A stretch of 64,000 bases of DNA from Niveispirillum sp. Lineage in GTDB: Bacteria; Pseudomonadota; Alphaproteobacteria; Azospirillales; Azospirillaceae. Made by a program: the position numbers and the translations under genes. This document shows positions 2,043 to 35,737 of the stretch, in pieces. The first letter of the stretch is position 1. Every line of letters begins with the position of its first letter. The DNA lies in NCBI RefSeq assembly GCF_017996735.1, contig NZ_JAGOGJ010000018.1, positions 1 to 64,000 of the forward strand. The letters are read 5' to 3'. The notes under the pieces are model-generated. The model worked only from the letters and a program-made list of their open reading frames with translations, did no database searches and had not been told where the DNA came from.

Positions 2043-2054
2043 AACCATCCCGAC
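2043..2054 (+). promoter_or_regulatory. Island motif copy 1 (AACCATCCCGAC)
   Basis: A perfect AACCATCCCGAC, preceded by CCGGT, 41 bases before the ATG at 2096. The same or a one-base variant sequence occurs upstream of seven other genes of the island. It is probably a promoter element or operator; no conserved -10 box at a fixed distance was found. Confidence 0.6.
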
Positions 2055-2095
2055 AAGAAGGAAGATCCACTTCACCCGACAAGGGGACAGCGACC

Positions 2096-2641
2096 ATGTC
2101 CACGATCATCCGCACCATGTCCTGGGGACTTGCCCTCATGCTTGTACTCGGCCTCGCAGGCTGCGCTGGAAAGCAGCAGATTGCGGCCGGCCCGATCCTG
2201 CCAAGCAATCCCGCCGACCCGTTCAAGGTTTCACTGACCACCCCTCAACCCCAACCCCTGGTCGAAGGGGAGGGCATGCAGTTTGTTCTGCTCTCTGCCC
2301 TGGACGGTTACGCGCATCTTTATAATCTGCGCCAATCGGGGGATGTGCAAGTGCTGGCCGAGAACCTGCCCCTGGCGGCCCGTGTGCCCCGTTCCTACCC
2401 TTCGATTCAGGACGGGTTCGAATTGCGGGCGCAGGCCCCCGCCGGCCGGGACCAGATTGTGCTGGTCGTTACACGCTCTCCATTCAATGCCGGTGTTCTG
2501 CCCCCCGGACGCCGTCCCCCCGCCGCTACGGTCCAGACGCCGGAACAGGTTGCGACGCGGCTGCGCTCAATACTGGAGCGTCAGCCCGTTGATGGCTGGA
2601 GCCGAGACATCCTGGCGGTGGACGTTCTTGTCCGCCGCTGA
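2096..2641 (+). CDS. DUF4384-type lipoprotein
   Basis: 181 residues with a lipoprotein signal (lipobox LAGC, lipidated Cys23; Ala at +2 suggests the outer membrane). Residues about 45-130 fit the DUF4384 pattern seen repeatedly in this island: DGYAHLYNL, a short acidic turn, a proline-rich stretch, then a hydrophobic strand (QIVLVVTRSPF). DUF4384 is often found beside or fused to caspase-like domains; its molecular role is not established. AAGGGG precedes the ATG. It heads a unit with the DUF4384 gene at 2678 and the caspase at 3795, under motif copy 1. The family call rests on pattern only. Confidence 0.75.
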   Translation: MSTIIRTMSWGLALMLVLGLAGCAGKQQIAAGPILPSNPADPFKVSLTTPQPQPLVEGEGMQFVLLSALDGYAHLYNLRQSGDVQVLAENLPLAARVPRSYPSIQDGFELRAQAPAGRDQIVLVVTRSPFNAGVLPPGRRPPAATVQTPEQVATRLRSILERQPVDGWSRDILAVDVLVRR

Positions 2642-2677
2642 CCTTCACCAGAACGCCAGCAATCCGGGAGCCCTAGC

Positions 2678-3757
2678 ATGAAACACCCTTATCCCGTCTC
2701 TCTTGCGGCCTTGTTGATGGCTATGTCCGTTGCGGCGCTGCCGGCATTCGGAAGCCTTGTCCAACTGCCGCCCATGGAAAGCACGGCGGGCATCGTCCAA
2801 GCCCCGCCGTCGGGCGCGCCGCTGGCCAAGGCAGCAGAGCCGGTACGGCTGGAACTGGTGCCCACCGCCCCGAGCGCGGGTGCCCCAGCCGGAGAGGCAA
2901 CGCCCGCTGATCTGGCCCTTTTTGTCGAGGGAGCGGTGCGTGACATTCTGGGCAATGCCACGGGCGTGGCGCTGTTGACCGAGGTTACGGTACCGCCGCC
3001 GGTCGCCGGTATGGCCAAAAATCTGGTGGCGGAGCCCCTGCCGGCCCGCGCCACCGTGCGTCTTTCCCTGTCTGGTGTGATGGCAGGGCAGGGCGGGGGG
3101 CACCACTTGCCTGTGACATTGGAGGTGCAGCGCGAGGGGAAGGCGCCGGTACGGGAGAGTTTCCGTGTGCTGCCGGCCCAGCGTGACAAGGCCGTGGCGG
3201 GTTTCCGCACCTTCCTGGCCCGTCATTTGCCCTTGGGGGCCCCGGTGGCGGTGCCATCCGCACCGGCCACCGCCACATCTGCCGCTGCTGCCCCGCGCCT
3301 GGGTCCGGTAAAGCCGGTCCTGCGCCTTTGGATGGATAACAGCGACGGCGGCACCGTCACTCTCCGCTCCAAGCTTGTCATCTACTGGCAGGCCAGCCAT
3401 AGCGGTTATGTCAGCCTATATCATTTCGATGCCGGTGGTGGCGTGGAACGCGCCTTCCCCACCCGGCAGATGCCGGAAAACTTTGTGGAGGCGGGGCGGA
3501 TATATCGCTTTCCGGCAAGCGGCCACCTGACCCTGGACGGTCCCGCCGGGCCCCAGAGCTTCCGTGCGGTCATGACGCTCTACCCATCCAACACCAGCCG
3601 GCAGCAGCCCGATGGCCTGTCGTTCCGGGGAGAGCCGCTGCGCGTGATCCCGACCCATTACCCCATGCTTTTTGCCAACGAGGATATGAGCCGGATATTC
3701 GCATTGCCCGGTCATCTCTACACGGAATCGCAACTGCCTTTTGTCCTGAAGCCCTGA
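2678..3757 (+). CDS. Exported protein with C-terminal DUF4384 domain
   Basis: 359 residues, beginning with a Sec signal peptide of about 23 residues. Residues about 65-170 form an alanine/valine-rich domain that I do not recognise. Residues about 215-330 follow the DUF4384 pattern: SGYVSLYHFDAGG, then AFPTRQMPENF, AGRIYRFP, and a final strand FRAVMTLYPS. It lies 36 bases after the lipoprotein gene and 37 bases before the caspase gene, all on the plus strand. It is probably a periplasmic partner of the caspases, inferred from context only. Confidence 0.75.
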   Translation: MKHPYPVSLAALLMAMSVAALPAFGSLVQLPPMESTAGIVQAPPSGAPLAKAAEPVRLELVPTAPSAGAPAGEATPADLALFVEGAVRDILGNATGVALLTEVTVPPPVAGMAKNLVAEPLPARATVRLSLSGVMAGQGGGHHLPVTLEVQREGKAPVRESFRVLPAQRDKAVAGFRTFLARHLPLGAPVAVPSAPATATSAAAAPRLGPVKPVLRLWMDNSDGGTVTLRSKLVIYWQASHSGYVSLYHFDAGGGVERAFPTRQMPENFVEAGRIYRFPASGHLTLDGPAGPQSFRAVMTLYPSNTSRQQPDGLSFRGEPLRVIPTHYPMLFANEDMSRIFALPGHLYTESQLPFVLKP

Positions 3758-3794
3758 ACCGTCCGCCGTCACGCCAGAAAAAAAGGGGATATCC

Positions 3795-5174
3795 ATGGCC
3801 CGACGCATCACGGCCCTGAAAGCCGCCTTCCTTGCCGCTGCCCTGCTGGGCACCACCACAGCCGGGGCCCAGACCAAGGACATCAATGTCCTGCCCAGCA
3901 ATACCAGCCCCACTGTCCGTCTGGATATCAAGATCAGCAGCCGGGTGCTGCGGGTCGGGGACGACGTCAAGATCTGCTTCACATCCAGCCGGAGCGGCTA
4001 TACCAGCCTGTGGAATATCGGCACCTCGGGGCGCGTGGCCCGTATTCACCCCTTCACTGCGGACGCGGCTCCCCACGAGATGGAAGCCGGGCGCGAGACC
4101 TGCGCCGGCGCCGCCACCGATGCCTATCGTTTCAAGGTCGGGGGGCCGCCGGGCCTGGAGGAGACCTATCTCCTGTTTACTGAAAGCGCCGACACCCAGC
4201 CCAAACAACTGAGCTATGCCGATGTCAGCGGCATTTCAAAGGACCTGATGGTGGTCCAGCGCGAGGCCCCGAGCCGGTGGGCCACCGCCAAGGTCAGCTA
4301 CGAGATCGTGCCGCAGAGCGGCCCCGTGGCCCCTCCGGCGCCGCCCCCGCCGCCCCCGGCGCCGGCTGCACCGGCCCGCAAGACCTGGATCATCTCCATG
4401 GGGGCCGATACACAGGGCCTCACCAAAACCAATTACGACGCCTCGCGCTTTGTCGACGCGGCCAGCCGCCTGTTCGCTGTCCCGGCTGCCAATGTCCGTC
4501 TGACACGGAACACCAGCAAGGATCAGTTCCGCGACAATATGGCGTGGCTTGCCCGCAATGCGGGACCAGACGATCTGGTTTTCATCTTCTTTTCTGGTCA
4601 CGGCTACACGATGAAGGACGATAATGGTGATGAAAGCGACGGCCTTGACGAAATGTTCGTCACCCAGGACGTCGAAGGGGCAAGCCGCATCAGCCGTGAC
4701 ATCCTGGTATCGGACGACGAATTCGCCATCTGGTCGCGTGCCATCCGGGCCCGGAACCTGATCGCGGTGCTGGATACATGTCATTCTGGTGGCCTGCACA
4801 AAAGCATCGCAGGCACCCCGACCGGGGCCAAGGCAAAGTCCTTCGATGCTGACGTCTGGGAGGCTGACCGGGCGCCGGCTGCGACCGCCAAGTCGGCGTT
4901 CGGAGAAGAGCCGGAGACAACCGCCAAGGCCATGACCGATGGCATTCGTGGTGTGGTGATCGCTGCAGCGGAGGAGGCACAGGCCGCGTTGGAAGGGCCG
5001 GAGGGGGGCTTGTTCACGGTGGCTTTGCTAAAATCCTGGTCGTCCGGCCAGACGGGCAACCTGGGGCAATCCTATGACCAGGCCCGGGCCGCGACCTACG
5101 AACGCAGCCGCCGCCAGCAGCAACCCAGTCTGGCGGGTGATCGCACCATTCTGGACGGTGTGAGCCTGCGCTGA
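3795..5174 (+). CDS. Exported DUF4384-caspase (peptidase C14) protein
   Basis: 459 residues: signal peptide (1-25), DUF4384 domain (about 35-160, with SGYTSLWNIGTSGRV), a proline-rich linker (about 176-192) and a caspase-like domain (about 195-455). The catalytic pair is visible: His269 in FFSGHG and Cys329 in LDTCHSGG. An acidic stretch after the His (KDDNGDESDG) resembles the calcium-type loop of metacaspase-like proteins. AAGGGG lies upstream of the ATG. It is the third gene of the unit starting at 2096, and motif copy 2 overlaps its stop codon. Periplasmic cysteine peptidase activity is inferred from motifs. Confidence 0.85.
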   Translation: MARRITALKAAFLAAALLGTTTAGAQTKDINVLPSNTSPTVRLDIKISSRVLRVGDDVKICFTSSRSGYTSLWNIGTSGRVARIHPFTADAAPHEMEAGRETCAGAATDAYRFKVGGPPGLEETYLLFTESADTQPKQLSYADVSGISKDLMVVQREAPSRWATAKVSYEIVPQSGPVAPPAPPPPPPAPAAPARKTWIISMGADTQGLTKTNYDASRFVDAASRLFAVPAANVRLTRNTSKDQFRDNMAWLARNAGPDDLVFIFFSGHGYTMKDDNGDESDGLDEMFVTQDVEGASRISRDILVSDDEFAIWSRAIRARNLIAVLDTCHSGGLHKSIAGTPTGAKAKSFDADVWEADRAPAATAKSAFGEEPETTAKAMTDGIRGVVIAAAEEAQAALEGPEGGLFTVALLKSWSSGQTGNLGQSYDQARAATYERSRRQQQPSLAGDRTILDGVSLR

Positions 5175-5185: not shown

Positions 5186-5251
5186 AGGATGGATGAGCTG
5201 AAAACGGCGCCTCCCCCATGGGGGGAGGTCTGCCCTGGCAAGGAGAATCCG

Positions 5252-6394
5252 ATGGCCGTCCCCAACCGTGCGCTTCCGTTCCTGCTGGTCGCCTCGGCGC
5301 TGGCCTTACCGGCCCTGGCGGATCTCGGCAGTTCGATCCCGGCCACACCCCCACCGGTGCCCGCACAAGCAGTGGCCGGTGAACCCGGCGTCAGAGACCT
5401 GACACCAGTTCAGCGGCCCGTCGCCACCCTGGCTGCCCCTGCCGCGGATCTTGCGGTGACGGCCTGGGTGGATCATGAGGATAATGTCTATCGCACGGGC
5501 GATGACCTGACCCTTTATGTGAAAACCAGCAAGGATGCCCATGTCACCGTTCTGGATGTGGGCAGCTCTGGCCAGATGCATGTGGTGTTTCCCAATCAGC
5601 ACCAGCCTGACGGTTTCGTGAAAGCCGGCAAGGTGATGGTGCTGCCCGGGCGGGACGCGCCGTTCCGGTTCAAGGTTTCGCCGCCTGTGGGCACCAATGT
5701 CCTCAAGATCATTGCCACCAGTTCCCCGATCGCCCTGTTCAAGCCTGGGCAGTTGAGCGATGCCGGGCCGTTCAAGTCGGTTGCGGGGACGCCCGAGCAA
5801 CTGGCCGGAGACCTGAAATCCGTCTTGAGCGACAAGAAAGGGCAGTGGGCTCAATATACGAAGATCTTTCGGATCGCCGAGCCAAAGCCGCAGGAGAGCA
5901 AGCCGATGCCCGTGGCGGCTGCGACACCGGCGTCTGGCTTGTTGCAGGTGGCACCGCCCGCCGGGTCTTTTGCCCTGCGCCTGACGACGGACCGGCCGCG
6001 TTACCGGTTGGGGGAGAATGTCCGCGTCACGGTAGGTAGTGACCGCGACTGCCATCTGACCCTGCTGGATGCCGGCACATCCGGAAAGGTGACGGTGGTC
6101 TTCCCCAACCGCTTCCAGCCGCAGACCCTGCTGCGGGCCGGCCAGACGGTCAGCGTGCCGGCGGCTGGTGCCGCTTTCGATTTCCGCGCTGCTGGCCCGG
6201 CGGGTACGGAGGCGCTGGTCGCCATCTGCCGGCCGACACCGGAGCCGCTACTGGGATCAGCCTATGATTTCACGCGGACGCCGTTCATGTCACTGGGGGA
6301 CAGTTCGCTGGTGGTGAAGGATCTGGCGACGGTCATGGCCGGTTCGACATCCGGGGTCGGCCATGCGGCGGTCTCTTTCCAGATCCTGCCCTGA
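5252..6394 (+). CDS. Exported protein with two DUF4384 domains
   Basis: 380 residues from the ATG at 5252, chosen because AAGGAG stands before it and a signal peptide (about 22 residues) begins directly; the frame is open upstream to 5189. Two copies of the DUF4384 pattern are plain: one at about 70-190 (AHVTVLDVGSSGQMHVVFPN) and one at about 245-355 (CHLTLLDAGTSGKVTVVFPN). Their close similarity points to an internal duplication. The gene has its own motif copy and ends at a strong hairpin, so it may be monocistronic. No enzymatic motif is present; a binding or scaffold role towards the caspases is a guess. Confidence 0.8.
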   Translation: MAVPNRALPFLLVASALALPALADLGSSIPATPPPVPAQAVAGEPGVRDLTPVQRPVATLAAPAADLAVTAWVDHEDNVYRTGDDLTLYVKTSKDAHVTVLDVGSSGQMHVVFPNQHQPDGFVKAGKVMVLPGRDAPFRFKVSPPVGTNVLKIIATSSPIALFKPGQLSDAGPFKSVAGTPEQLAGDLKSVLSDKKGQWAQYTKIFRIAEPKPQESKPMPVAAATPASGLLQVAPPAGSFALRLTTDRPRYRLGENVRVTVGSDRDCHLTLLDAGTSGKVTVVFPNRFQPQTLLRAGQTVSVPAAGAAFDFRAAGPAGTEALVAICRPTPEPLLGSAYDFTRTPFMSLGDSSLVVKDLATVMAGSTSGVGHAAVSFQILP

Positions 6395-6399
6395 TGGTC

Positions 6400-6435: not shown

Positions 6436-6492
6436 AACCCGACGCCGGGATTGCTCGATATCCATCGGATTTTGCATACATCAGTATGAATG

Positions 6493-6598: not shown

Positions 6599-7921
6599 AT
6601 GCTGCCCAAGTCATTTATCGCGTTTCTACTCCTTCCTTTTTTCCTGACGGCGTCGCCCGCCCTCGCCGAAAAGCGGGTGGCGCTGATTGTCGGCATCAAC
6701 GACTATACGAACCTCAACCATCTGCAGAAGGCCCGTGCCGATGCGGACGCCTTTTCGGCGCTGCTGGCCCGGCCGGAATTCGGCTTCAAGGTTTCCAAAC
6801 TCCTGGATCCGGACCGCGAGAAGCTGCGGGATGCGTTCGCCCAGTTTCTGGTCGAGGCGGCGGATGCCGATGTTGCGTTGATGCACTTTTCCGGGCACGG
6901 GGTGGAGGTTGCGGGGCAGAACAAGCTGCTGGCTGCGGATTTCCCGGATATCACCACGCGGCAGGAACAGTCGGCGCAACTGGTGTTGCGAAGCGATGGG
7001 TTCGATATTGACGATCTGGTGGCGCAGATCAAGGAGGCGGGGGCCCGGTCCACCGTCCTGATCGTGGATGCCTGTCGTGAAAATCCGTTCAAAAAGTCGA
7101 AAAGCCGCTCTCTGGTTGGAAGCCGAGGGTTGGGCCAGATCGCGCCCCGGGACCGCACCTATATCGCCTATTCCGCAGGGGCGGGGGAACTGGCCCTCGA
7201 CCGGTTGAACGATGCCGACCGGGAACCCACCAGCGTTTTCATGCGCTACCTGTTGCCGGAACTGCAGGTGCCCGGCCGTACCCTTGACGAAGCGGTCAAG
7301 GCAGCGCGGCGCACGGTTAATAGTGTGGCGCGGGAGCAGGCATCGCATAACCAGACCCCGGCCATTTATGACCAGTCGCTTGACCCGATCTACCTGAATC
7401 TGGCTGCCGCGAAGGCGCCGCCAACGCCCAGTTACGTTCCTCCGCCGCCTGTCGCTATCTCGCCTGATGAGATGGCGTGCCGGAGCCTGCAGGACGCCAG
7501 GACGGCGGAACCGTTCGAACTCTATCTGCGCCGGTTTCCCAACGGTATGTGCCGGGATTTCGCGGATATACAAGTATCCAGCTTCCGACCCGTGCCGAAG
7601 CCGGCTGTTCCCGCGCCCGCCCCGTCCTTGCCGGCGCCGTCGGGCACAGCGGCGGGTGAGTATATCGAAGCGCTGGGCATTCAGGTCTCGCCACTTGGCG
7701 ACGGGACGGGTGCCTTCAAGATCGATAGCATCACCAATCGGTCGCCGGTGCTGGGCAGTCTGTTCCTGGGGGATGTGATCCTGAAGGTCAATTACGCCGA
7801 TCCGGAGCCTGGCAAGACGCCACGTACTGTGCTAGAAAATGCTATTCTTGAGAAGAAAAGAATAAATCTTCTCGTGAAACGTGGAAACGCAACCGAATCT
7901 GTTTCGGTGCGGGCGCGGTAG
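6599..7921 (+). CDS. Exported caspase-PDZ fusion protein
   Basis: 440 residues from the ATG at 6599, chosen for the GAGGGGG upstream and for the signal peptide (1-23) that starts there; an upstream ATG at 6533 has neither. The caspase-like domain (about 25-265) has His100 in HFSGHG and Cys159 in VDACREN. A proline-rich linker follows (about 270-350), then a C-terminal PDZ-like domain (about 355-440: LGIQVSPLGDG, then NRSPVLGSLFLGDVILKVN). A PDZ domain on a periplasmic protease usually binds C-termini or regulates activity, as in DegP. The last hundred bases are AT-richer, with rarer codons. It is followed by the CsgG-like gene at 7976. Confidence 0.85.
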   Translation: MLPKSFIAFLLLPFFLTASPALAEKRVALIVGINDYTNLNHLQKARADADAFSALLARPEFGFKVSKLLDPDREKLRDAFAQFLVEAADADVALMHFSGHGVEVAGQNKLLAADFPDITTRQEQSAQLVLRSDGFDIDDLVAQIKEAGARSTVLIVDACRENPFKKSKSRSLVGSRGLGQIAPRDRTYIAYSAGAGELALDRLNDADREPTSVFMRYLLPELQVPGRTLDEAVKAARRTVNSVAREQASHNQTPAIYDQSLDPIYLNLAAAKAPPTPSYVPPPPVAISPDEMACRSLQDARTAEPFELYLRRFPNGMCRDFADIQVSSFRPVPKPAVPAPAPSLPAPSGTAAGEYIEALGIQVSPLGDGTGAFKIDSITNRSPVLGSLFLGDVILKVNYADPEPGKTPRTVLENAILEKKRINLLVKRGNATESVSVRAR

Positions 7922-7975: not shown

Positions 7976-9088
7976 ATGTCACGCAAAGTGATGGTTTTGG
8001 CAATTAGTGCGGGGTTGTCCCTCATGGCTTGCCAGGTGATGGCAAAGCCAATTACCTATGAAGCAGTCGTTCAGCCGAAATCCGTTGCAGCATCTCAATT
8101 GAAGACGGTTACTGTGTTGCCCTTCAAGGGCACGGATGGTGAGGTTTTTGGTGATGTGCTGCTGGGCAGTCTGCAATCCGCCAAGGTCGATGGTGTTCCC
8201 TATTTCGAGGTCAAGACCTTGCAGGGCGTTACGGCCAATACCCGGTCATTGGGCAAGGATGAACTCGCGGCGGCCGTGAAGCTGGGGGAGCAGTTGGGCG
8301 TGCAGGCGGTCTATGTCGGCACGGTCACCATCGCCCGGATCGTACCGCAGAAGCGTCAGGAACAAAGAACGAGATGCCTTGAAAGCGGCGGGTTCCTGAA
8401 AAAGTGCAAGCAGGAACAAAATTACACGGTGATGTGCGAGAAGGTGGTCCTGGACTATGCGGTAGCCCCGCAGGTTGTCGACGTGAAGTCCAGCAAGATC
8501 GTCTATTCCGATAACCTGACAGAACAGGCCTATTACGACGGCTGTGAGGGTGAGGTACAGACCTCCAACTATGATGAGGTTTCCGGTATCGAGAAATCCC
8601 TCGGGGCGTCCATCGGAGCGCTGGGGTCACTTTTCGGTGGTAAGAAAAAGCCAGCGGCTGATGCCAATGCTGTGCCGGACGTCTGGACGCCCGACGCGCT
8701 GACCGCGGCGACGCGTCTCCGCCTGGCGGAGCGCGTCCGTCGTCATGTCGCCCCCTATGTTACGAAGGTCAGTGTCACCTTCAAATTTGAGGCGCCGGAC
8801 CTGGCGCCTGATGTCAAGTCCCGCTTCAAGGGTGCGGGCGAATTTGCCAAGGCCGGTCAGGTGGAGCAGGCTTGTGGACGCTGGCTTGATCTGTCGGCCG
8901 GTGCCAACGCGCAAAGCTCCGCCCTGCAATATAATCTCGGCGTCTGTGCCGAGGTGCAAGACGATCTGCCCAAGGCCCTGGAGTTCTACAAAAAGGCCGA
9001 GGCGCTGCAAGATCGCCCTGACAAGGATATCGGCGACGCCGTGAAGCGGGCGCGCGAGCGTCTGGCCAACAACAACACCGCAAACTGA
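7976..9088 (+). CDS. Exported CsgG-like protein with C-terminal TPR
   Basis: 370 residues with an N-terminal signal. A Cys19 in SLMAC could be a lipidation site, although VMA just after it also fits signal peptidase I. Residues about 40-120 (TVTVLPFKG..GEVFGDVLLGSL, then LGEQLGVQAVYVGTVTI) resemble CsgG/LpoB-type periplasmic lipoproteins. The middle has a cysteine-rich stretch (residues about 133-165). A TPR-like pair lies near the end (ALQYNLGVCAEVQDDLPKALEFYKKAE). GAGGGGGAAAA precedes the ATG. It shares a unit with the caspase-PDZ gene 54 bases upstream and ends at a hairpin terminator. An envelope assembly or accessory role is inferred. Confidence 0.65.
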   Translation: MSRKVMVLAISAGLSLMACQVMAKPITYEAVVQPKSVAASQLKTVTVLPFKGTDGEVFGDVLLGSLQSAKVDGVPYFEVKTLQGVTANTRSLGKDELAAAVKLGEQLGVQAVYVGTVTIARIVPQKRQEQRTRCLESGGFLKKCKQEQNYTVMCEKVVLDYAVAPQVVDVKSSKIVYSDNLTEQAYYDGCEGEVQTSNYDEVSGIEKSLGASIGALGSLFGGKKKPAADANAVPDVWTPDALTAATRLRLAERVRRHVAPYVTKVSVTFKFEAPDLAPDVKSRFKGAGEFAKAGQVEQACGRWLDLSAGANAQSSALQYNLGVCAEVQDDLPKALEFYKKAEALQDRPDKDIGDAVKRARERLANNNTAN

Positions 9089-24474: not shown

Positions 24475-25662
24475 ATGCGATCCCTGCTGACGATCTTTGG
24501 CCTCGCCGGCCTGCTGCTGCTTCCGCCCCCGGCGGGCGCGGCGGATAGCCCGACGGCCGGCCTTGTGCTGAATGCCAATCGCACGGGGTTGGCGCTTCTG
24601 GACCGGGAGATGGAGCGGGGAACCGGCAATGCCGCTGTTTCTCCCGCCAACCTGTCGCGGGCCCTGGCCATCCTTTCCATGGCTGGCAAGGGGCCGGGGC
24701 CGGATGCACTGCGTGCCCGACTTCTGGGCCCAGATGCGCGGCCCGCCGCGTTGCCGGTCGCCCTGGCGGCGCTGGACAAGGCGCTGGCCCGCCCGCCCGC
24801 AGCAGACGGCGCGGCCCCGCCGCTGCTTCAGACCGCCGCTCTCTGGCACGCGCCGGATGCCGTGCCCGTGGCCCGTCCGCCCAAGGACCTCGCGGCCCTG
24901 ATCGATGGCGGGCCAAGACCGCTGAAAGGGGTGGAGGATATCAATGGCTGGGTGAGGCAGGCTACGGCCGGCCGTATCCCCACCCTGCTGGACCGGCTGG
25001 CGGAGGATACGCCCATGGTTCTGGCAACGGCGCTGTTGTTCAAGGATGACTGGTCGTTCCCCTTCGAGACGTCGCAGACCCGACCCGCCCCCTTCACCAA
25101 CGCCACCGGACTGGCGGCAGAGGTGGAGATGATGCAGCGGGAGGACAGGATGCTGGCCGTCCGCGATGGCAGCGATGGTACAATCGGGGTCTCCCTTGGG
25201 TACCGCAACGGGTACAACCTGCTGCTGCTGCTGCCGCCAGCCGGTACGCCGGTAGCAGCCCTCCTGACGCCAGAGGGGACACTGGCCGACCCCGCCTTCA
25301 TGGACGGGAGCACCTATGGCCGGATGTCGGCCCTGCTGGTATTGCCGCGGGTGCAACTGACGCAGCGGCTGGAACTGACCGGCCCTGACGCTGCCATGCC
25401 GGACCTGATCGCGGGGCCGCTGGATCTGTCGCGGCTGCTCAAGGGTGGTCCCTGGCCGCCGGGCCGCGCTGTGCATGCCGTCTCCCTTTCCTGGGATGAA
25501 AAAGGAACCGAACTGGCCGCCGCAACCGCCATCGCCGCCAGCCGCGGCATGTCGGAGGATGTGCGCGAAATCCGCTTCGACCGGCCTTTCCTGTTCCTCT
25601 TGCGCGACGGCGCCACGGGCCTGATCCTGGCGGCGGGGCGGGTGGACAGTCCGAAATCGTGA
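24475..25662 (+). CDS. Exported serpin (protease inhibitor)
   Basis: 395 residues from the ATG at 24475 (GGAGAAG upstream), with a signal peptide of about 22 residues; the usual serpin size is 350-400. Serpin landmarks: NAAVSPANLSRALAILSMA near residue 50, TALLFKDDWSFPF near 185, and the hinge DEKGTELAAATAI (Glu342 as P17, Thr345 as P14). The C-terminal signature RFDRPFLFLLRD..TGLILAAGRV begins at Phe368. The small-residue hinge predicts an inhibitory serpin rather than a non-inhibitory one. The reactive loop carries Ala-Ser-Arg-Gly-Met-Ser around the expected P1, so an Arg, Gly, Met or Ser site cannot be decided. It sits inside the caspase operon. Inhibition of the caspases, as viral CrmA does, is inferred. 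Confidence 0.9.
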   Translation: MRSLLTIFGLAGLLLLPPPAGAADSPTAGLVLNANRTGLALLDREMERGTGNAAVSPANLSRALAILSMAGKGPGPDALRARLLGPDARPAALPVALAALDKALARPPAADGAAPPLLQTAALWHAPDAVPVARPPKDLAALIDGGPRPLKGVEDINGWVRQATAGRIPTLLDRLAEDTPMVLATALLFKDDWSFPFETSQTRPAPFTNATGLAAEVEMMQREDRMLAVRDGSDGTIGVSLGYRNGYNLLLLLPPAGTPVAALLTPEGTLADPAFMDGSTYGRMSALLVLPRVQLTQRLELTGPDAAMPDLIAGPLDLSRLLKGGPWPPGRAVHAVSLSWDEKGTELAAATAIAASRGMSEDVREIRFDRPFLFLLRDGATGLILAAGRVDSPKS

Positions 25663-27581: not shown

Positions 27582-29042
27582 ATGCCCATCCGCCATGTCG
27601 GTTTCCTGCTCTTGGTGCTGCTCTTTGGCGCTATCCCGGCGGCATTGGGCAATATAAGGCAGGAATCTGAGGCGGGGCGGAAAGTGGCGCTGGTCATCGG
27701 CAACGGTGCCTACAAGGGGGCGCCCGTGCTGCAAAATCCTCTGAATGATGCGGCGGCGATGCGCAGGGCGCTGGGCGGGATGGGTTTCAGCGTCATCGGT
27801 GGCGACGATCTGGACGTGGCCGCAATGGACGGGTTGCTGGACCGGTTTGCCGGCATGGCGGCGGGGGCGGAACAGGCGGTCATCTATTTCTCGGGCCACG
27901 GGTTGCAGGTGGATGGGGTTAATTACCTGTTGCCTGTTGATATCTCCTTGTCCACGAAGCGTGACCTGCACCGCCGGGCCATCCTGGCCGATGCGATGGT
28001 GGAGGCCATGGCCGGGGCGACCGGGTTACGGTTGCTTATCCTGGATGCCTGCCGCGACAATCCTTTTGCGCGGGCTCTTGAGGCAACGAGTGGGACGAAG
28101 TCGGTTGCGGTGGGCAAGGGCCTGGGTCAGATCGCGGGCCTGGACGGAGTTGGCAATACCCTGGTCGCCTATGCCACTCGCGCCGGTGACGTTGCCCTGG
28201 ATGGAACAGGCAATCTCAGCCCCTACGTCAAGGCCCTGACCACGCATCTGGTGACACCGGGTCTGGAACTGAACCTGCTGTTCGGCCGCGTGCGCGATGA
28301 TGTGGTGAGGGCGACCGGTGGCCGGCAGATTCCCTTCACCTATGGTTCCACCGGCGGGCAGGCCATCTATCTTGCCGGGCTGCCCCTGCCGGTGGAGGCG
28401 CCGGTGCTTGATCGCCCCACCGTGGCGGATGACAAGTGGACGGTGCAGCCCGGTGGTCAGCACAGGCTGAGCGTGCTGGACAATGACAAGGCGGCGGCCG
28501 GTGGGGCGCTGCGGATCGTCGCCGTCACCCAGCCGAAGGCCGGCGAGGTGCGGGTTGCCCCCGACGGGCGCAGTCTGCTGGCCGAGGTGCCGGCAAATAT
28601 CGAGGGGGAGTTGCGCTTCACCTACCGCGTGGAGGATCAGGGCGGTGGCCGGGCGGAAGGGCAGGTGGTCCTTGCCTTGTCGAAGCCGCCTGTGCAGGTA
28701 GACGTCCTGTCGAAGCCGCCTGTGCAGATGGACGAGAATACCCTATCCGTACCGCTCGGCCTGATAGTGGCGGATCTGACGGAGCGGCGTCGTCGGGAGT
28801 TTAATATAAAGCCGAGTGTCAAGGGCGTGGTCGTTATAAGAAACCTTAAGAATCCTGGCTCAAGTGGGGTGTGGGGTCTGCGTCCTGGCAATGTAATTGA
28901 GCGTTTGGACGGTCGACCGGTCGATGGAAAGCATGAGTTTAATGAAATGCTATTGCAATCCATAATCGATAGAAAGAATGGTGTGTCTTTATCTGTGAAT
29001 ATAGATGGATATCTCATGTTTGATTATTTTTGGTTTAGGTAG
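27582..29042 (+). CDS. Exported caspase/cadherin-like/PDZ protein
   Basis: 486 residues from the ATG at 27582 (GGAG six bases upstream); a GTG overlapping the preceding stop is the alternative. Signal peptide about 1-24; caspase-like domain (about 30-265) with His106 in YFSGHG and Cys157 in LDACRDN. A cadherin/Ig-like domain of the VCBS or Big_9 type follows (about 290-375: DDKWTV, LSVLDNDKA, LRFTYRVEDQGGG). Then come a 10-residue tandem repeat (SKPPVQ twice) and a PDZ domain (about 395-486: GLIVADLTERRRREF, KGVVV, GLRPGNVIERLDG). The PDZ-coding DNA (28790-29042) is AT-richer, with rare codons, as if acquired separately. Last gene of the unit. Confidence 0.87.
   Translation: MPIRHVGFLLLVLLFGAIPAALGNIRQESEAGRKVALVIGNGAYKGAPVLQNPLNDAAAMRRALGGMGFSVIGGDDLDVAAMDGLLDRFAGMAAGAEQAVIYFSGHGLQVDGVNYLLPVDISLSTKRDLHRRAILADAMVEAMAGATGLRLLILDACRDNPFARALEATSGTKSVAVGKGLGQIAGLDGVGNTLVAYATRAGDVALDGTGNLSPYVKALTTHLVTPGLELNLLFGRVRDDVVRATGGRQIPFTYGSTGGQAIYLAGLPLPVEAPVLDRPTVADDKWTVQPGGQHRLSVLDNDKAAAGGALRIVAVTQPKAGEVRVAPDGRSLLAEVPANIEGELRFTYRVEDQGGGRAEGQVVLALSKPPVQVDVLSKPPVQMDENTLSVPLGLIVADLTERRRREFNIKPSVKGVVVIRNLKNPGSSGVWGLRPGNVIERLDGRPVDGKHEFNEMLLQSIIDRKNGVSLSVNIDGYLMFDYFWFR
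28681..28736 (+). repeat. 30-bp tandem duplication in a caspase linker
   Basis: CGAAGCCGCCTGTGCAG at 28681 recurs at 28711, a 30-bp period encoding two copies of a 10-residue unit (SKPPVQ followed by a variable part). It lies exactly between the cadherin-like and PDZ domains. Confidence 0.75.
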
Positions 29043-29177: not shown

Positions 29178-29981
29178 CTACCCCTGCCGTTTCAGCACCA
29201 GCCGGCACCTCAGGTTGTCGGGCAGGCGGGTCAGGGGGAGGGCGTCCTGGCGGGTGTCGTCGCCGAAGGCCTTGACGGTGCTGGCCGGTGGGACGGCGCC
29301 GGGTGACCGTTCGGGCAGGGAGGCCACTTCCACCGGGATGGCGGGCAGGGACAGCAGGTGCAGCGTTACGGCCTCATTGCCGGCCGGTGCGGCATGCCAG
29401 TCAGCCGCCGGCAGGCGGGCGGTGGCGCCGCCGGCAGGCCCGTTGCCCAGCAGGACGACGCCCGTCAGTCCCTGGGGTGGCCGGGCCGACAGACGGTAGA
29501 GGCTGCTGGCACCCAGGCTGACGGTGCCATCCACCGACAGGGGCTGGTGGATCACGGTTTCCGTCCCGTCAATCGTGGCTGGCAGGGCGGTATCCTTGAT
29601 GGTCAGCACCCAGGGGCAGGCGGGGGCTGTTGGTGCGTCGGCCGGTGCCGTGCGCAGTTCCAGCCGGTCGATACCGGCGGCGCTTCCCGCTACCCGTACC
29701 GGCCAGGGCGCCGGCCGGCCCAGCAGCAGGGCCAGGGTCGCCGCCCTTTTCTCCGCCAGCGCCAGATCGGTACCGGGGGGGACCAGCCAGCGGAAGCCCG
29801 CCCGGTCATCCTGGCCATAGCGGCGCACCAGTTCCAGAAGCCGTATCCAGCCGGCCTGGTTCGGCCCCAGTTCCAGTTCCGCCGATCCGGCGGCGAAACC
29901 CATGACCAGGGGCGGCGCGGCGGTGGCAGCAGGCGCCAGGGCCAGGGTCAGGAAGGCGGCAAGAACGGGAAGGGGACGCAT
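29178..29981 (-). CDS. Exported protein, possible OmpA-like fold
   Basis: 267 residues from the ATG at 29981, seven bases after the stop of the upstream gene, with a signal peptide of about 21 residues. Residues about 25-100 (MGFAAGSAELEL, then LALAEKRAATLALLLG) loosely resemble an OmpA-type start and its arginine-bearing helix, but the key binding motif is absent. The rest is beta-rich with no recognised family. It is the last gene of a four-gene minus-strand unit facing away from the SEDS gene. An envelope role is inferred from the signal peptide. Confidence 0.6.
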   Translation of the reverse strand: MRPLPVLAAFLTLALAPAATAAPPLVMGFAAGSAELELGPNQAGWIRLLELVRRYGQDDRAGFRWLVPPGTDLALAEKRAATLALLLGRPAPWPVRVAGSAAGIDRLELRTAPADAPTAPACPWVLTIKDTALPATIDGTETVIHQPLSVDGTVSLGASSLYRLSARPPQGLTGVVLLGNGPAGGATARLPAADWHAAPAGNEAVTLHLLSLPAIPVEVASLPERSPGAVPPASTVKAFGDDTRQDALPLTRLPDNLRCRLVLKRQG

Positions 29982-29988
29982 CCTCTGG

Positions 29989-31308
29989 TCACTCCGGGCA
30001 TTGGGGATCATCGCGATCCAGCAGGGTGATGAAATGGGTGACATGGCCGGGCGCCATGTCCGCCAGACGGTTGACCGCCAGGCGCAGCCGCTCCCCCTCT
30101 GTTCCTGCCTTCTTCATGGCTTCGGCCGCCGCTTCATACAGCCCATCAGGCGCCGGTGGCGGTCCGTTCCAGGCCAGAACCATGACGGCTCCGGGTTGCG
30201 CCGGCGGCAACAAGGGAACGTCATGGGTGATGCGGGTCCGGGGGCCGCCCGCGCCGGGCGTCACCTTGATCTCACCCGACCGGCTTAGCGTTACCAACAT
30301 GTCATGGACAGATGCCGGCGCCCCGTCACGGCTGGCATCCAGCGACAGGCGCAGATACTCCCCCACACGATAGGCGGGCAGATTGTCCACAATGCATGCG
30401 GGCCGTTCCACGAAACCATCGCGTGCTGTATTCCGCCAAGCCATGCGCACTGGCACCTGATCGCGGGGATCGGCCGGTAACAGCGAAACGGGACGGGTCA
30501 GCCAATATTGTGCGTATCCGGCCAGGGCCAGCAGAAGAAGGACGGCGGCCCCCACCCGCCGGGCGCGGACCAGACGCGGCGGCTCCACAATATGGGTGAT
30601 GCCCAGGATGCCGGCCGCCTCGCGCAGTGTATCCACGATATGGACCCGGGCGCCCAGGTCTGTCAGCCGGGCGATCAGGTCGGCATGGGTCGCCGCCACA
30701 TCCCGCAAGGCCGGGGGCTGGCCCTCGGGGCCTTTCACCGGCTCCTGCCGGGGAAGGAACAGGTGCCAGGGCCTGTCTGGGGTGGGCGGCTGTGCCCGGA
30801 CGGCCTCTTCCAGCAGCCGCAGCTTGCGGTTAATCAGGCCCACCGGGACAACCCGGGCATCATTTATCAGGGCCGGATCGACGGCCAGATTGCCCGTGGC
30901 CGCCACATTGGGCAGCTTTTGTCCCGCCATGAAGGCCAGGGCCGTCAGGGCGATGCCCAGCGTGGCACTTTCACTGTTCTGCTGCGACAGAAGTTGGACA
31001 TTGGCGGCATTTTCCACCCAGAGCGCGAAATGCGCCATTTCGCGCTGGACCCAGCCTGGCCAGGGCAAGCGGGTGGTGAAGTGGCAGGCCGCAAGGACCT
31101 TCAGCGCATCCAGGCCCCGCTGGCTCAGCTTGGCATCCTTCAGCGCATAGACACGGAAATCCATATCGGCGGCCCTGGCCTCCGCGTACCGGATATTGCC
31201 GCTGTCCGCGACCAGCCGGGCGATAACGCCCAGCGGTTTCGGCTCCGCCGCCCCGGTGGCCGGCAACGGGATCAGCAGGCCGACAGGGTCACGTTTCATC
31301 GCCGGCAT
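29989..31308 (-). CDS. Membrane protein with Lon-like Ser/Lys domain
   Basis: 439 residues (ATG at 31308; a second ATG at 31299 is equally plausible). No signal peptide. Residues about 105-170 match the Lon/ComM-type S16 pattern: SESATLGIALTALAFMAGQ with Ser114 where Lon has its catalytic serine, VAATGNLAVD like the Lon TGE strand, and VVPVGLINRKL with Lys162 in the lysine position. The Ser-Lys spacing is 48, against 43 in E. coli Lon, the difference being a short loop. One membrane segment (about 252-270) is followed by a periplasmic beta-rich part with DUF4384-like features. No AAA+ module is present. Proteolytic activity is unproven. Its start overlaps the preceding gene. Confidence 0.65.
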   Translation of the reverse strand: MPAMKRDPVGLLIPLPATGAAEPKPLGVIARLVADSGNIRYAEARAADMDFRVYALKDAKLSQRGLDALKVLAACHFTTRLPWPGWVQREMAHFALWVENAANVQLLSQQNSESATLGIALTALAFMAGQKLPNVAATGNLAVDPALINDARVVPVGLINRKLRLLEEAVRAQPPTPDRPWHLFLPRQEPVKGPEGQPPALRDVAATHADLIARLTDLGARVHIVDTLREAAGILGITHIVEPPRLVRARRVGAAVLLLLALAGYAQYWLTRPVSLLPADPRDQVPVRMAWRNTARDGFVERPACIVDNLPAYRVGEYLRLSLDASRDGAPASVHDMLVTLSRSGEIKVTPGAGGPRTRITHDVPLLPPAQPGAVMVLAWNGPPPAPDGLYEAAAEAMKKAGTEGERLRLAVNRLADMAPGHVTHFITLLDRDDPQCPE

Positions 31309-31792
31309 CCGCGCCGCTTGTCATATGGAATTCCAGGGCATCGACGCGCAGGTCGGCCAGACCGGTGCGCACGTCCGTCGTGTCGGCCAGAGTAATTACC
31401 GCCTGTCCCTCGTCATCGAAACTTGTCTGGGTATCGATGGCGGCATTGCCGCTGACGATACGCACCCAACGCCGGCTCAGCCGCTCCATGGCATAGGAAC
31501 CGCGGGTCTGAAGGGTGACCGTCAGCCGGCCCTGTTTGGCCGCGACCAGCATGGCCAGATTGTCAGTGGGATCGATGATCAGTTCGCCAATGGGAACCGT
31601 CGGCTCGGCGACCGGGCTGGCCGCCAACTGCCGCAAGTCAAAGCTTTCCACGGTGTCCACCGTGCCCAGCGGGTCGAAAAAGCCTTCATCACGCAGGCGG
31701 GCATCCCAGTAATGGATCTCCAGCGTCCTGCTGAACCGTTCCCAGATGCCGGGCTCCGTGCCAGGCTTGCCGGTGCTGTTGTCTGTGGTCAT
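31289..31792 (-). CDS. Small soluble protein, function unknown
   Basis: 167 residues, acidic, with no signal peptide or membrane segment. Visible stretches include WERFSRTLEIHYWDARLRDEGFFDPLG near the N-terminus (continuous but without a family match) and IGELIIDPTDNLAML in the middle. The start lies three bases after the stop of the 466-residue gene, and the end overlaps the Lon-like gene by 20 bases, so all are translated together. The Asp-rich, beta-prone sequence gives no functional hint. Confidence 0.6.
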   Translation of the reverse strand: MTTDNSTGKPGTEPGIWERFSRTLEIHYWDARLRDEGFFDPLGTVDTVESFDLRQLAASPVAEPTVPIGELIIDPTDNLAMLVAAKQGRLTVTLQTRGSYAMERLSRRWVRIVSGNAAIDTQTSFDDEGQAVITLADTTDVRTGLADLRVDALEFHMTSGADAGDET

Positions 31793-31795
31793 GGG

Positions 31796-33196
31796 TCAAT
31801 CCTCTCCGTCAGTGGACGGGGCCGCCGTATTGGCGGGCAATTGCCGGAACTTCACGATCAGGCGGTGCAGCCACTGGTCCAGGCCGATGGCGCCGTCCGC
31901 TTCGATGCGGGACGATAATCCCTTGATCTTGCTTGTGTAGTCCTTCTGGGGCGTGCCGTTCAGGATGAAGAGCAAAGCTTTGTGCTCGACCTTGTCGATC
32001 CGTCCCTCGTCGCGCGCCTTCTGCGCCTGTTCGATCATCTTTTCCAGGCTGAGCGTGCCGCCTCCGGCTTCGCCCCGTTGCCGTCCCGTCTCTTCGGTTT
32101 CCGGGTTGTGGCCATCTTCCCCCTCCTCATCGTCATCAGCATACCGATCGTTCGCGGGGCCGGACCTGTCCAGCCAGTCCGGCGCGTCGCCGGCTGCATC
32201 CGCCTGTTCCTCTGTCGGGATGGTCGCGGCCAGCACGTCATAGGATACGGTGCGATCCGGGCGCAGATGCCCGATGGACAGCTTGCCCAGTTCTCCATGC
32301 AGGAACGCTTCCAGGCTTTTGTAACCCGGTACCGGGTTGCCGTCCGTCTTTGGATCTTTCGCCAGATCGTCCCAGACCTGCTGCCAGATGGTCAGGGAAT
32401 CCTTTGGCTCGCCATGTCGCGTTGCCTTATCGAAGGCGATCCGGCGCAGGTTGTTGGCAGCCCGCAACTGTGACAGGGAGGCAAGCCAGCCTTCGGGCGG
32501 CTCGATTTCCGGTGGATCGACGCGGCGGCTGCCGATCCGGTGGAAATAGGCGGCGGGATCGACGCCCAACCGCACCAATTCCCGAAATGTACGGTCCAAA
32601 TTCTGCATCGCATCGCCGGCAACATCGATGAAGGCGGTCTTTCCGTTGGAAGACCAGGGCAGCAAGGCCGTCGGTCCGCAACTTATGACATCCCAGAGCC
32701 CAATCCAGTCGGTGATGGGCGCGCTCATTTTTCTCACGTTCAGGCCGAACGGTTCCGCCATGGGATGGGACGAACGTGGAAGTAGGCCGAACGCTTCCCC
32801 GATCCGCCGCAACTCCGGGTCCAAAGCCCGCGCGCCGCCATGATGGGGGGTCACCACCGCCTCGTCCCAGTGTGCCCTGTCTACCCGCTGGCAAAGCAGT
32901 TCCAGGGCCTTGTGCCCTGTGCTGGGGTGGCGCCCCCGCGTCAGCCGGATGGGCGTGTGCAGGACCATACGCAGATAGAGGTCGGCCCGGTCAGCGCGCG
33001 TGTCGAAATCAGCGCCATCGGGTAGCCGCAACAGGCGGCGGCCCTTGCCGCAAAGATAGTCCATCAGACTTTTCTGGATACGCCAGGGATGCACCACGCC
33101 TGCCCCCCCACCTGAGGGGGAACTTAGCAGGTGGGCCAGGAGGTGGGCCAGACGTTGATGCGGACTGAGCTTCGGCGCGTTTGGTTCGCGGGTCAT
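31796..33196 (-). CDS. Cytoplasmic protein of unknown function, first gene of a four-gene unit
   Basis: 466 residues; the ATG has GGGGGAG upstream. No signal peptide or membrane segment. Two Trp-rich segments (ITDWIGLWDVISCGP near 150 and SLTIWQQVWDDLA near 260) and an acidic, low-complexity linker (about 345-375, DDDEEGEDGH) divide the protein. The C-terminal 85 residues are helical and charged (ARDEGRIDKVEHKALLF). I recognise no family. It is divergent from the SEDS gene across a 132-base intergenic region that contains motif copy 8 on the other strand. It could be a regulator or scaffold; no DNA-binding motif is convincing. Confidence 0.6.
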   Translation of the reverse strand: MTREPNAPKLSPHQRLAHLLAHLLSSPSGGGAGVVHPWRIQKSLMDYLCGKGRRLLRLPDGADFDTRADRADLYLRMVLHTPIRLTRGRHPSTGHKALELLCQRVDRAHWDEAVVTPHHGGARALDPELRRIGEAFGLLPRSSHPMAEPFGLNVRKMSAPITDWIGLWDVISCGPTALLPWSSNGKTAFIDVAGDAMQNLDRTFRELVRLGVDPAAYFHRIGSRRVDPPEIEPPEGWLASLSQLRAANNLRRIAFDKATRHGEPKDSLTIWQQVWDDLAKDPKTDGNPVPGYKSLEAFLHGELGKLSIGHLRPDRTVSYDVLAATIPTEEQADAAGDAPDWLDRSGPANDRYADDDEEGEDGHNPETEETGRQRGEAGGGTLSLEKMIEQAQKARDEGRIDKVEHKALLFILNGTPQKDYTSKIKGLSSRIEADGAIGLDQWLHRLIVKFRQLPANTAAPSTDGED

Positions 33197-33285
33197 TCAA
33201 TTCTCCCCCATGTCGCTGGTGCAACGCAGGATGTGGACAAGGCCTGCTCCCCGCAACCGGAAAATGACCTGACTGTGCTGCCTCC

Positions 33286-33297
33286 GACCATCCCGAT
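33286..33297 (+). promoter_or_regulatory. Island motif copy 8 (GACCATCCCGAT)
   Basis: Two end-position differences from AACCATCCCGAC with the ACCATCCCGA core intact, 31 bases before the ATG of the SEDS gene. No copy is oriented towards the divergent gene starting at 33196. Confidence 0.5.
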
Positions 33298-33328
33298 ATT
33301 TGAGAAGAAGCCAGATGAAGGGGGGATC

Positions 33329-35737
33329 ATGCGTACATTCTCATCGACCGGGTCAGGGATGGCCTTTCTCATGGCGCTGGTCATTCTGGCCGTCACGACC
33401 TTGCTGGCGGGGGAGATGGCGGATCGTGCCACGCTTGGCTATCGGGTGACGGAGGTGCATCTGTCCTTGCCCCCTCCCGGCGAAGGGTTGGACCTGTCAC
33501 CGGCACACCTTGGACTCTATCCGGATGACAGCCCGGTTCTGCGTCTGATCCGCGATAGACCCGATGCGGTACCGCGCGTGCTTCCCCTTCGTCCGGGGCT
33601 GGACTTGAAAGTCGACCGCGGAGAGGATTTCCAGTCGCTTTACCGCTACCGGCTTTTTCCAGGTGATGGCCTGACGGGTGCCGGTTTTTCGCTGGCTGTC
33701 GCGATGGAGGGGAAAAGCACCTTTCTGGTGGATCGGGTCGGCGGCGGTCGTATCGACCTGGACCCGGCCCGCATACCGGTGCCCGATGGCCCGCTGAAGG
33801 TGGATGATTGCAACCCGAAGGCCGGGGGCGCGGAAAGGCTATGGATCGGGCTGAAGGATATGTTTCGTAAGCTGTTTGGCCAGCATGGCTGGACATTGGC
33901 GATCGGTGGCAATGTCGCCTGTCCCGGACGCTGGCCCCTCTCGGACGTTGCTCTGGGCTCTCTGCGTCTCGACGTAACGGATGACGGGGAGGTGTGGATT
34001 GATGCTGGCCGCTTCCCGGGCTTGGTGCGTCACCAGCGCCCGCTTCCTGTGGAACTTCCGGCTGTGAAGAGGTTGATGGTGGGGCCGACCCTTTTCGAGA
34101 TGGAGATGAACGGGGGAGATCTGATCCTGCACGCACGTACCGGCCGGCCGCTCCTGTCCGACCCTTTGGCGGGTGACGGGTTGCGGTTCGAAGGACCGGG
34201 AACCCTGCTGGAACGGCCGGGAACCTTGGCCGCGCTGATCGCACTGGCCAATGATCCGCTGCAACCGCTGCTCGCTGGTTTGCTGTTTCTGGTCATCACG
34301 GGGGGACTGTATCTGGCCTGGCGGGCCGAATTGCCGGTGCTGTGGCACCACGGGGCGGCGCTGTGGCTGTTGTGCCTGGGCGCGCAGGCGGTCTACGGCG
34401 TGGTGCGCTCGGGTACGGATGATCCGCTGTTCTGGATGGGGGTGGCGGGAATGGCAGCGGCCTTCGCCACTCTGTGTCTGGCGATCGGCGGCTGGCTGCG
34501 CGGGGCCGGGGGGCTCGTCTGGTGTCTGTTGCTGTTCATGGCTGCCGTCGGGCTGCTGGCGCAGGGGCAGATGGTGGCCGGCGGTCGGGCCGAGGGGGCG
34601 GTGGGCATCCTGGTCCGACATACGGCCTTGGGTGTGGCCGGCAGCGCCCTGGCCTTCTGCCTGCTGTCCCTGGTGCCGTTCGCCCCGCAGATGCGAGTTC
34701 TGGAGGGCTTCACCCTGGACATGGTCGCCTATGATTGGAAACGGGCGCCGTTGGTGTGGCTGATCTTCGTCGTGGGGGTAGCGGCATTGATCCTGGTCGC
34801 CCTCGGGTCGGAACGGGGCGTCGCCTCCATTCAGCCGGCGGAATTCGTGAAGATGGCCGTCGCTGTCATCACGGCCGCCCTGGCCGCCGCGCTTGGCCGC
34901 CTTCTGCGTGAGGGGGGGAGGGAGATGTCGCGCCTGCGGCTGGCATCGTGGTGCGTGACCTGGATACTTCTGTTCATTGGGCTGGCTTGTGCGTTCCTGG
35001 CAGTGAGCGACATGTCGCCGCTTCTGACCCTGGGCTTCATCCTGCTGGGTGGCTGGGCCGGGCTGCTGCTGCATGCGCTGGCTGCGCACCGTGAAAGCCG
35101 GAATTTCGGTCCGCTGGGCTGGGTGCTGCTGCTGCCGGGTGTGGTTCTGGCGGCAGCCCTCTCCTTCGGCCTGTTCAGTAATCCGCAGCCCCTGCTTGAA
35201 ATGCTGGGTGAGGTCGGGGGTGGGCGGTTCGACACCTGGTTCGACCCTTACTATAACCAGATTGGGGGGGCCCAGCTTCTGGATGCCTGGAACGCCATAC
35301 GTACCGCACCGTTGCTGCCGGACCCCGGGGAGTGGTTCGGACCCAACGGAGTGGAGCGCCGGATCGCCGCCGTGCATCATGATTTTGTCGGCGCCTTCGT
35401 CATCGCCCGTTTCGGCATCTTATTGGCGGCAGCGCTTGCGGCGGCGCAGGCGGCGATAGTGGTCGTCCTGATGCTGGCGGGATTGCAGCTTGTCTGGGCG
35501 CCGCCGGCCCACGGCACCGCGCCTGATGGGGGCCTGCTGTTGGGGCACCTCTGTTTGGGCATGGCCACCGCGCTTGGCATGCAATGGCTGGTCGGTTGGG
35601 CCAATCCGCTGGGGCTGCTGCCCGTCATGGGACAGCCCATGTCCTGGATCGCCTATGCCAATTTTCACACCCTGTGCTTCGGTGTTCCGGCCCTCTGGGT
35701 GGGGCTTATGGCGCAGCGTGCGGCAAGGGAAGCGTAG
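33329..35737 (+). CDS. Large FtsW/RodA-type (SEDS) protein with N-terminal extracytoplasmic domain
   Basis: 802 residues from the ATG at 33329 (AGGGGGG upstream), about twice the usual SEDS size. One membrane segment (about 11-30) is followed by a beta-rich region of about 280 residues of unknown fold. A polytopic part then follows, with about ten to twelve segments. SEDS hallmarks: IQPAEFVKMA near 501 (QPSEFxKL in FtsW/RodA), the loop RFDTWFDP with AVHHDFVGAFVIARFG, and NPLGLLPVMGQP (family: NlGvlPvtGiP). SEDS proteins polymerise glycan strands from lipid II together with a class B PBP; the island encodes one at 9200. The sequence is divergent, so activity needs proof. Probably monocistronic under motif copy 8. 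Confidence 0.8.
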   Translation: MRTFSSTGSGMAFLMALVILAVTTLLAGEMADRATLGYRVTEVHLSLPPPGEGLDLSPAHLGLYPDDSPVLRLIRDRPDAVPRVLPLRPGLDLKVDRGEDFQSLYRYRLFPGDGLTGAGFSLAVAMEGKSTFLVDRVGGGRIDLDPARIPVPDGPLKVDDCNPKAGGAERLWIGLKDMFRKLFGQHGWTLAIGGNVACPGRWPLSDVALGSLRLDVTDDGEVWIDAGRFPGLVRHQRPLPVELPAVKRLMVGPTLFEMEMNGGDLILHARTGRPLLSDPLAGDGLRFEGPGTLLERPGTLAALIALANDPLQPLLAGLLFLVITGGLYLAWRAELPVLWHHGAALWLLCLGAQAVYGVVRSGTDDPLFWMGVAGMAAAFATLCLAIGGWLRGAGGLVWCLLLFMAAVGLLAQGQMVAGGRAEGAVGILVRHTALGVAGSALAFCLLSLVPFAPQMRVLEGFTLDMVAYDWKRAPLVWLIFVVGVAALILVALGSERGVASIQPAEFVKMAVAVITAALAAALGRLLREGGREMSRLRLASWCVTWILLFIGLACAFLAVSDMSPLLTLGFILLGGWAGLLLHALAAHRESRNFGPLGWVLLLPGVVLAAALSFGLFSNPQPLLEMLGEVGGGRFDTWFDPYYNQIGGAQLLDAWNAIRTAPLLPDPGEWFGPNGVERRIAAVHHDFVGAFVIARFGILLAAALAAAQAAIVVVLMLAGLQLVWAPPAHGTAPDGGLLLGHLCLGMATALGMQWLVGWANPLGLLPVMGQPMSWIAYANFHTLCFGVPALWVGLMAQRAAREA

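Follow-up and report, generated by a model that had tools for sequence, protein, structure and literature searches.

A caspase–serpin island with a wall-synthase gene pair in some Azospirillum-like bacteria and a few distant relatives

What caspase homologs do in bacteria has long been an open question, and a contig of Niveispirillum sp. (NZ_JAGOGJ010000018.1) raises it alongside genes for building the cell wall. The left 36 kb of the 64,000-nucleotide stretch analysed here (the window) hold 23 genes that form one group by content (Table 1). A first-pass annotation had proposed that they encode a single periplasmic proteolytic system tied to wall synthesis. Its DUF4384, OmpA, serpin, kinase, PP2C, transpeptidase and SEDS families were all recovered in family searches, whereas its CsgG-like label for g06 was not, and comparison with related islands turned up no counterpart of g06. 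That annotation had overlooked the FHA protein (g08), the minus-strand proteins beside the SEDS gene and the fusions of caspases to PDZ, WD40, FGE and Big_9 domains. Pfam and NCBIfam returned nothing usable for g08, g11, g19, g20 and g21. The start of g04 was shifted from 5189 to 5252, so that its product opens with a signal peptide. Several adjacent genes share a few bases (among them kinase/PP2C, OmpA/casp4 and casp4/casp5), which suggests co-translation.

Table 1. Genes of the island, with the boundary that closes it on the right
Gene	Product	Coordinates	Strand	Evidence
g01	DUF4384 lipoprotein, lipobox LAGC	2096..2641	+	PF14326 6e-8; homolog of 43% identity in the island of A. agricola
g02	secreted DUF4384 protein	2678..3757	+	PF14326; homologs in the arrays of A. 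agricola and Contendobacter
g03	caspase 1, DUF4384 + C14, signal-peptide-like N-terminus	3795..5174	+	homologs: 45% A. agricola, 39% Contendobacter
g04	secreted protein, two DUF4384 domains	5252..6394	+	PF14326 2.8e-46 over two stretches
g05	caspase 2, C14 + PDZ-like C-terminus	6599..7921	+	Pfam, motifs
g06	secreted TPR protein	7976..9088	+	weak matches to TPR and LipL41
g07	divergent class B PBP, transpeptidase only	9200..11752	+	PF00905; SxxK, SxN, KTG intact
g08	protein with predicted C-terminal FHA domain (residues about 384–614)	12212..14065	-	predicted fold, family motif
g09	PP2C phosphatase	14110..14985	-	PF13672 5e-10
g10	Hanks-type Ser/Thr kinase, C-terminal half hydrophobic	14982..16457	-	PF00069 2.3e-33
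g11	probable membrane-anchored protein, gene overlaps kinase gene	16454..17206	-	no Pfam/NCBIfam match
g12	caspase 3, WD40 propeller + C14	17470..20340	+	53% identical over 955 aa, A. agricola
g13	OmpA-C protein with TPR, gene overlaps g14	20406..21350	+	PF00691
g14	caspase 4 (casp4)	21337..22920	+	OmpA-casp4-casp5 order kept in A. agricola, Contendobacter, other Azospirillum
g15	caspase 5 (casp5), C14 + DUF4384 (DUF4384 below cut-off)	22917..24461	+	Pfam
g16	secreted serpin, predicted P1 Arg (AASR|GMS)	24475..25662	+	PF00079 3.5e-42; loop alignment
g17	caspase 6, C14 + FGE-sulfatase domain	25708..27558	+	Pfam
g18	caspase 7, C14 + Big_9 Ig-like	27582..29042	+	Pfam
g19	secreted protein, signal-peptide-like N-terminus	29178..29981	-	no Pfam match
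g20	membrane protein, Lon (S16)-like N-terminal domain, weak assignment	29989..31308	-	Ser and Lys invariant, three homologs
g20b	167-aa protein	31289..31792	-	kept in A. agricola
g21	466-aa protein	31796..33196	-	kept in A. agricola
g22	SEDS, extracytoplasmic N-terminal domain of about 270 residues	33329..35737	+	PF01098; Asp of HHDF conserved
	right boundary of accessory region	35738..35779		close relatives: 89–91% identity rightwards of 35779–35780, other genes leftwards

All seven proteins first listed as caspase-type match PF00656 above its gathering cut-off, with intact His (SGHG or AGHG) and Cys (D[STA]C[HR]) motifs and, in a motif check, the Asp ahead of the Cys region. Their genes lie between 3.8 and 29 kb of the window and their partner domains vary (DUF4384, PDZ-like, WD40, FGE-sulfatase, Big_9). 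A six-frame search of the genome found six of them and two C14 genes on another contig; the WD40 caspase (17470) was missed by that search and detected only through Pfam on its protein. Seven of the at least nine C14 genes of the 7.47-Mb genome are thus packed into 34 kb, compared with 0.04 expected from random placement, a null that is weak because of tandem duplication; caspase counts in general overstate independence, since the arrays have expanded partly through duplication. The signal peptides originally assigned to all seven caspases hold up as signal-peptide-like N-termini: by a simple score and inspection, hydrophobic N-terminal segments with signal-peptidase-like sites are present in 7/7 caspases, in the DUF4384 proteins, in OmpA and in the serpin. 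Judged from these N-termini, the island caspases appear to be extracytoplasmic. Positively charged residues are the cleavage sites of orthocaspases (PMC6426788), and the island caspases may be active proteases that cut after Arg/Lys.

The wall-synthase genes are divergent and retain their catalytic residues. The g22 product has the SEDS domain (PF01098, FTSW_RODA_SPOVE; 28.5 bits versus a cut-off of 26.4), the conserved Asp and a partner class B PBP; g07 has the SxxK, SxN and KTG motifs of a transpeptidase and lacks a glycosyltransferase domain. Both the SEDS Asp and the three PBP motifs are kept in 19/19 homologs. The two genes are adjacent in most relatives and 21 kb apart in the window. Two other SEDS genes in the genome are strong and canonical, and a transpeptidase gene lies on the contig of each; the island pair is therefore auxiliary. 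Matches to the SEDS protein in Bosea and Hoeflea, considered as ordinary RodA, turned out to belong to a sister PBP-SEDS family without caspases. The extracytoplasmic domain of the SEDS protein was modelled confidently and had no clear structural match, its best FHA-like hits (Z 6.5 and 5.6) lying below the reliable range.

The FHA domain of g08 is visible from the predicted fold only, as a search of its profile against PDB chains by sequence found none. The top Foldseek matches of the AF2 model were FHA domains (VIA: Z 12.9, 2.4 Å over 105 residues), and the predicted fold and the GR...SRRH motif of its relatives assign g08 to the FHA proteins. Phosphopeptide binding by g08 is unsure because the window copy has His where the motif has Ser. 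For g20, the best profile matches were Lon-type proteins, albeit weak (E 0.66), and the Ser and Lys are invariant in three homologs. Kinase, phosphatase, FHA protein, SEDS and class B PBP occur together, within one island in the window and in contiguous order in A. agricola. The kinase may control the SEDS-PBP pair. The same parts, namely Hanks kinase, phosphatase, FHA protein(s), SEDS and class B PBP, make up the actinobacterial pknA/pknB-rodA-pbpA-FHA cluster (PMC3989709), a likeness in the parts list rather than demonstrated orthology. In contrast to that cluster, the island is accessory rather than core and its hosts are Gram-negative, its SEDS and PBP are very divergent, each with a large extra extracytoplasmic region, and PASTA repeats were not matched in the kinases of the window or of A. 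agricola.

Are the wall genes and the caspases neighbours by accident? In other genomes the families proved to be linked rather than scattered, both in A. agricola and in Gammaproteobacteria. The A. agricola island spans 42 kb, is nearly syntenic with that of the window and holds about ten caspases. Genes running in one direction encode kinase, PP2C, FHA, PBP and SEDS, followed by an M15 wall peptidase, a caspase and homologs of g20, g20b and g21; further on come DUF4384 proteins, caspases, a WD40-caspase, OmpA, casp4, casp5, a serpin, further caspases, another serpin and another WD40-caspase. Protein identities between this island and the window are 24–53% across both modules, so the association is old rather than freshly copied. 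Ca. Contendobacter (G443), a gammaproteobacterium, has FHA-SEDS-ECF sigma-PBP genes within an array of 12 caspases in which the gene orders OmpA-casp4-casp5 and DUF4384-casp1-DUF4384 are preserved, and in another gammaproteobacterium (G441) PBP-SEDS is directly followed by two caspases. An 18.7-kb fragment from the Azospirillaceae (G020) carries FHA-PBP-SEDS flanked on both sides by caspases. On the PBP-SEDS tree, caspase linkage requires at least three changes, with gains and losses indistinguishable.

Co-occurrence of families was assessed in 82 Azospirillaceae genomes, five of which encode this SEDS, five a serpin and four both; the evidence thus comes from five related SEDS-positive genomes and the tests ignore kinship. 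Serpins are found in 4/5 SEDS-positive versus 1/77 SEDS-negative genomes (Fisher p 1.4e-5), beyond chance, and co-occur with SEDS even where the genes are on different fragments (G018 and G020). All five SEDS-positive genomes have casp4, compared with 26/82 overall (p 0.0024), and C14 counts are greater in SEDS-positive genomes (p 0.0004). Their higher casp4 scores were given no weight as evidence, the profile having been built from those very sequences. A strict class-wide search for casp4 added two further genomes, G343, where casp4 lies within a caspase array on a fragment with no SEDS, and G211, which was poorly resolved in gene calling.

The modules are nevertheless separable. No C14 gene was found in 5 of the 19 SEDS-positive genomes, and 21 of the 26 Azospirillaceae genomes with the casp4 marker are without this SEDS, so that SEDS-free caspase arrays are the more common. 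The SEDS and caspase modules of G018 and G045 do not share a fragment or replicon stretch. Of the original proposal, the linkage and, as read from sequence, the extracytoplasmic caspases stand, whereas a single obligatory system is unsupported, since the SEDS occurs without caspases and the arrays without SEDS. At a probability of about 0.45, we see the island instead as two modules in an optional partnership, one a wall synthase under phospho-control and the other a battery of exported proteases restrained by the serpin.

That each module is found alone in many genomes also fits a serious rival, albeit one we hold to be doubtful, in which chance has brought the two together: independent accessory modules, functionally uncoupled, would be co-travelling on a horizontally acquired envelope island. 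The island does look accessory. Four close relatives share 89–91% identity with the window rightwards from about 35780 and have unrelated genes leftwards, which gives a sharp edge; the edge is mapped on the right, the contig starting at window base 1. Among the ten other genomes of the genus, this SEDS was found in none (0/10), nor was a serpin (0/10). Against chance co-location stand the repeated linkage, at three or more points of the PBP-SEDS tree and in another class too, and the co-occurrence of serpin and SEDS on different fragments. The wall-synthase and protease modules may be functionally linked.

The partnership reading also draws on the serpin. The g16 product has the features of inhibitory serpins (PF00079, 145 bits; a small-residue hinge of the DE.GT.AAAAT type; a reactive loop), and an alignment of reactive loops predicts an Arg or Lys at P1 and an inhibitory-type hinge in 7/7 serpins from six genomes. 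The exact P1 bond is a prediction, because it is read from the alignment and loop lengths vary by a few residues. Arabidopsis Serpin1 is a suicide inhibitor of metacaspase 9, as shown by biochemistry (cited in PMC10609998), whereas the island pair is predicted from loop sequence and linkage. Given this plant precedent as cited there and the Arg/Lys preference of orthocaspases (PMC6426788), the island serpin is a plausible brake on the caspases and may restrain them. A P1-Arg serpin could equally inhibit trypsin-like enzymes, which remain an alternative target: in G343 a trypsin-caspase-DUF4384 fusion adjoins OmpA and the serpin. The serpin of G025, moreover, has no caspase within its 19.5-kb stretch.

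Several elements of the protease module have precedents. Among prokaryotic metacaspase operons (Asplund-Samuelsson 2012, PMC3501461), caspases lie beside OmpA, protease/inhibitor genes (Rhizobium) and, once, mreBCD (Alcanivorax). The island shares the OmpA and protease/inhibitor neighbours, and its protease module extends these operons, which have three caspases at most; no operon described there joins caspases with the set of serpin, kinase, FHA, SEDS and PBP. The union of caspase and DUF4384 is likewise seen in alphaproteobacterial trypsin-caspase-DUF4384 proteins (PMC6426788), although those had a QC pseudo-dyad and the seven caspases of the window are all HC. In the open-licence literature we found neither the island's whole combination described nor SEDS/PBP with metacaspases or FHA in Proteobacteria, an absence that is weak evidence.

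The purpose of the protease battery is probably envelope remodelling or defence. If it were defence or antagonism, the caspases would attack incoming proteins (from phage, contractile weapons or predators) and the SEDS-PBP pair would then mend the wall. A patchy accessory distribution and the pairing of protease and inhibitor would suit this role, which we judge unlikely. PADLOC, run on ten island proteins, matched kinase and caspase models, but these are generic and no complete known anti-phage system was found. Caspase-like peptidases do occur in multigene conflict systems; these are mostly MoxR/vWA-centred (PMC7159879), whereas vWA, MoxR and VMAP components had no match among the island families. 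Self-lysis or programmed death, with caspases dismantling the envelope, appears still less probable. Metacaspases have been linked to death in other organisms and the genomes with many caspases include giant sulfur bacteria (PMC4853749), yet the linked wall genes are synthetic and keep their catalytic residues, the one lytic-type gene seen (M15) being that of A. agricola; the same M15 gene fits the partnership of wall synthase and proteases.

Under that partnership, a membrane-bound Hanks-type kinase, a PP2C phosphatase and an FHA phospho-reader would control a dedicated SEDS/class B PBP pair, so that wall building could be switched on by an envelope signal, apart from the housekeeping SEDS/PBP pairs. 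Exported caspases with differing partner domains would cut envelope proteins after Arg/Lys, tied to the wall by OmpA, and an exported serpin whose bait residue is Arg would restrain them. The likeliest course is that the proteases would process or clear envelope proteins while the synthase rebuilds the wall, in a regulated envelope remodelling or damage response. A closer coupling, in which an extracytoplasmic caspase cascade and its cognate serpin directly regulate the kinase-controlled SEDS-PBP synthase, is a more tentative proposal.

The kinase-phosphatase-FHA-SEDS-PBP cluster, known from Actinobacteria, is now seen in Gram-negative bacteria. A. agricola CC-HIH038, a named and isolated strain, has about ten caspases predicted to be exported, serpins whose predicted bait residue is the one expected and a putative kinase-switched wall synthase side by side, a compact arrangement that makes the targets of exported caspases and the inhibition of caspases by serpins directly testable. 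The combination hints that caspase-type proteolysis outside the cytoplasm may be coupled to wall building. If the caspases and their serpin directly regulate the synthase, the circuit would be a bacterial counterpart in design to the caspase/serpin circuits of animals and plants, acting on the cell wall.

The divergent SEDS kind of the island is also present in Achromatium (genome G446, locus L047) and Thiomargarita (G450, L036), which carry 41 and 22 C14 genes, respectively; these are whole-genome counts, and the fragments are short. The window's own genome has two further caspase genes, arranged in tandem outside the island (Table). Elsewhere, a trypsin-caspase-DUF4384 fusion retains an intact caspase dyad and is encoded next to OmpA, serpin and DUF4384 genes. 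A large protein, which in L132 combines Tubulin_2 and GYF_2 domains, is encoded among the OmpA, casp4 and casp5 genes of two Azospirillum genomes.

A sister PBP-SEDS family is found within a recurring gene block in Puniceibacterium, Rhizobiales 2SD, Rhizobium, Hoeflea and one uncultured alphaproteobacterium. The block consists of a weakly HSP70-like gene followed by genes for a coiled-coil protein, an unknown protein of ∼495 aa, the PBP, the SEDS protein (∼1000 aa, with a weak FHA_2 match) and, in most cases, a membrane protein of 700–800 aa. No caspases were found in these blocks (loci L050, L051, L062, L066 and L069).

The conserved right flank of the island is a leucine/isovalerate degradation cluster. 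Farther to the right, an aquaporin-like gene adjoins an ArsC-like reductase gene and, judging from their sequences, the two probably constitute an arsenic-resistance pair.

Table. Coordinates of features in the window and in compared loci
Feature	Location	Content
Tandem caspase genes	G000:C22 (L022:10341-13267)	
Trypsin-caspase-DUF4384 fusion	L125:8203-10524	
Large Azospirillum protein	L132:8063-11737; also G051 array (L130/L131)	∼1220 residues
Leucine/isovalerate cluster	window 36563-44063	acyl-CoA dehydrogenase, carboxylase subunits, enoyl-CoA hydratase, HMG-CoA lyase-like
ArsC-like reductase and aquaporin-like genes	window 60209-61386
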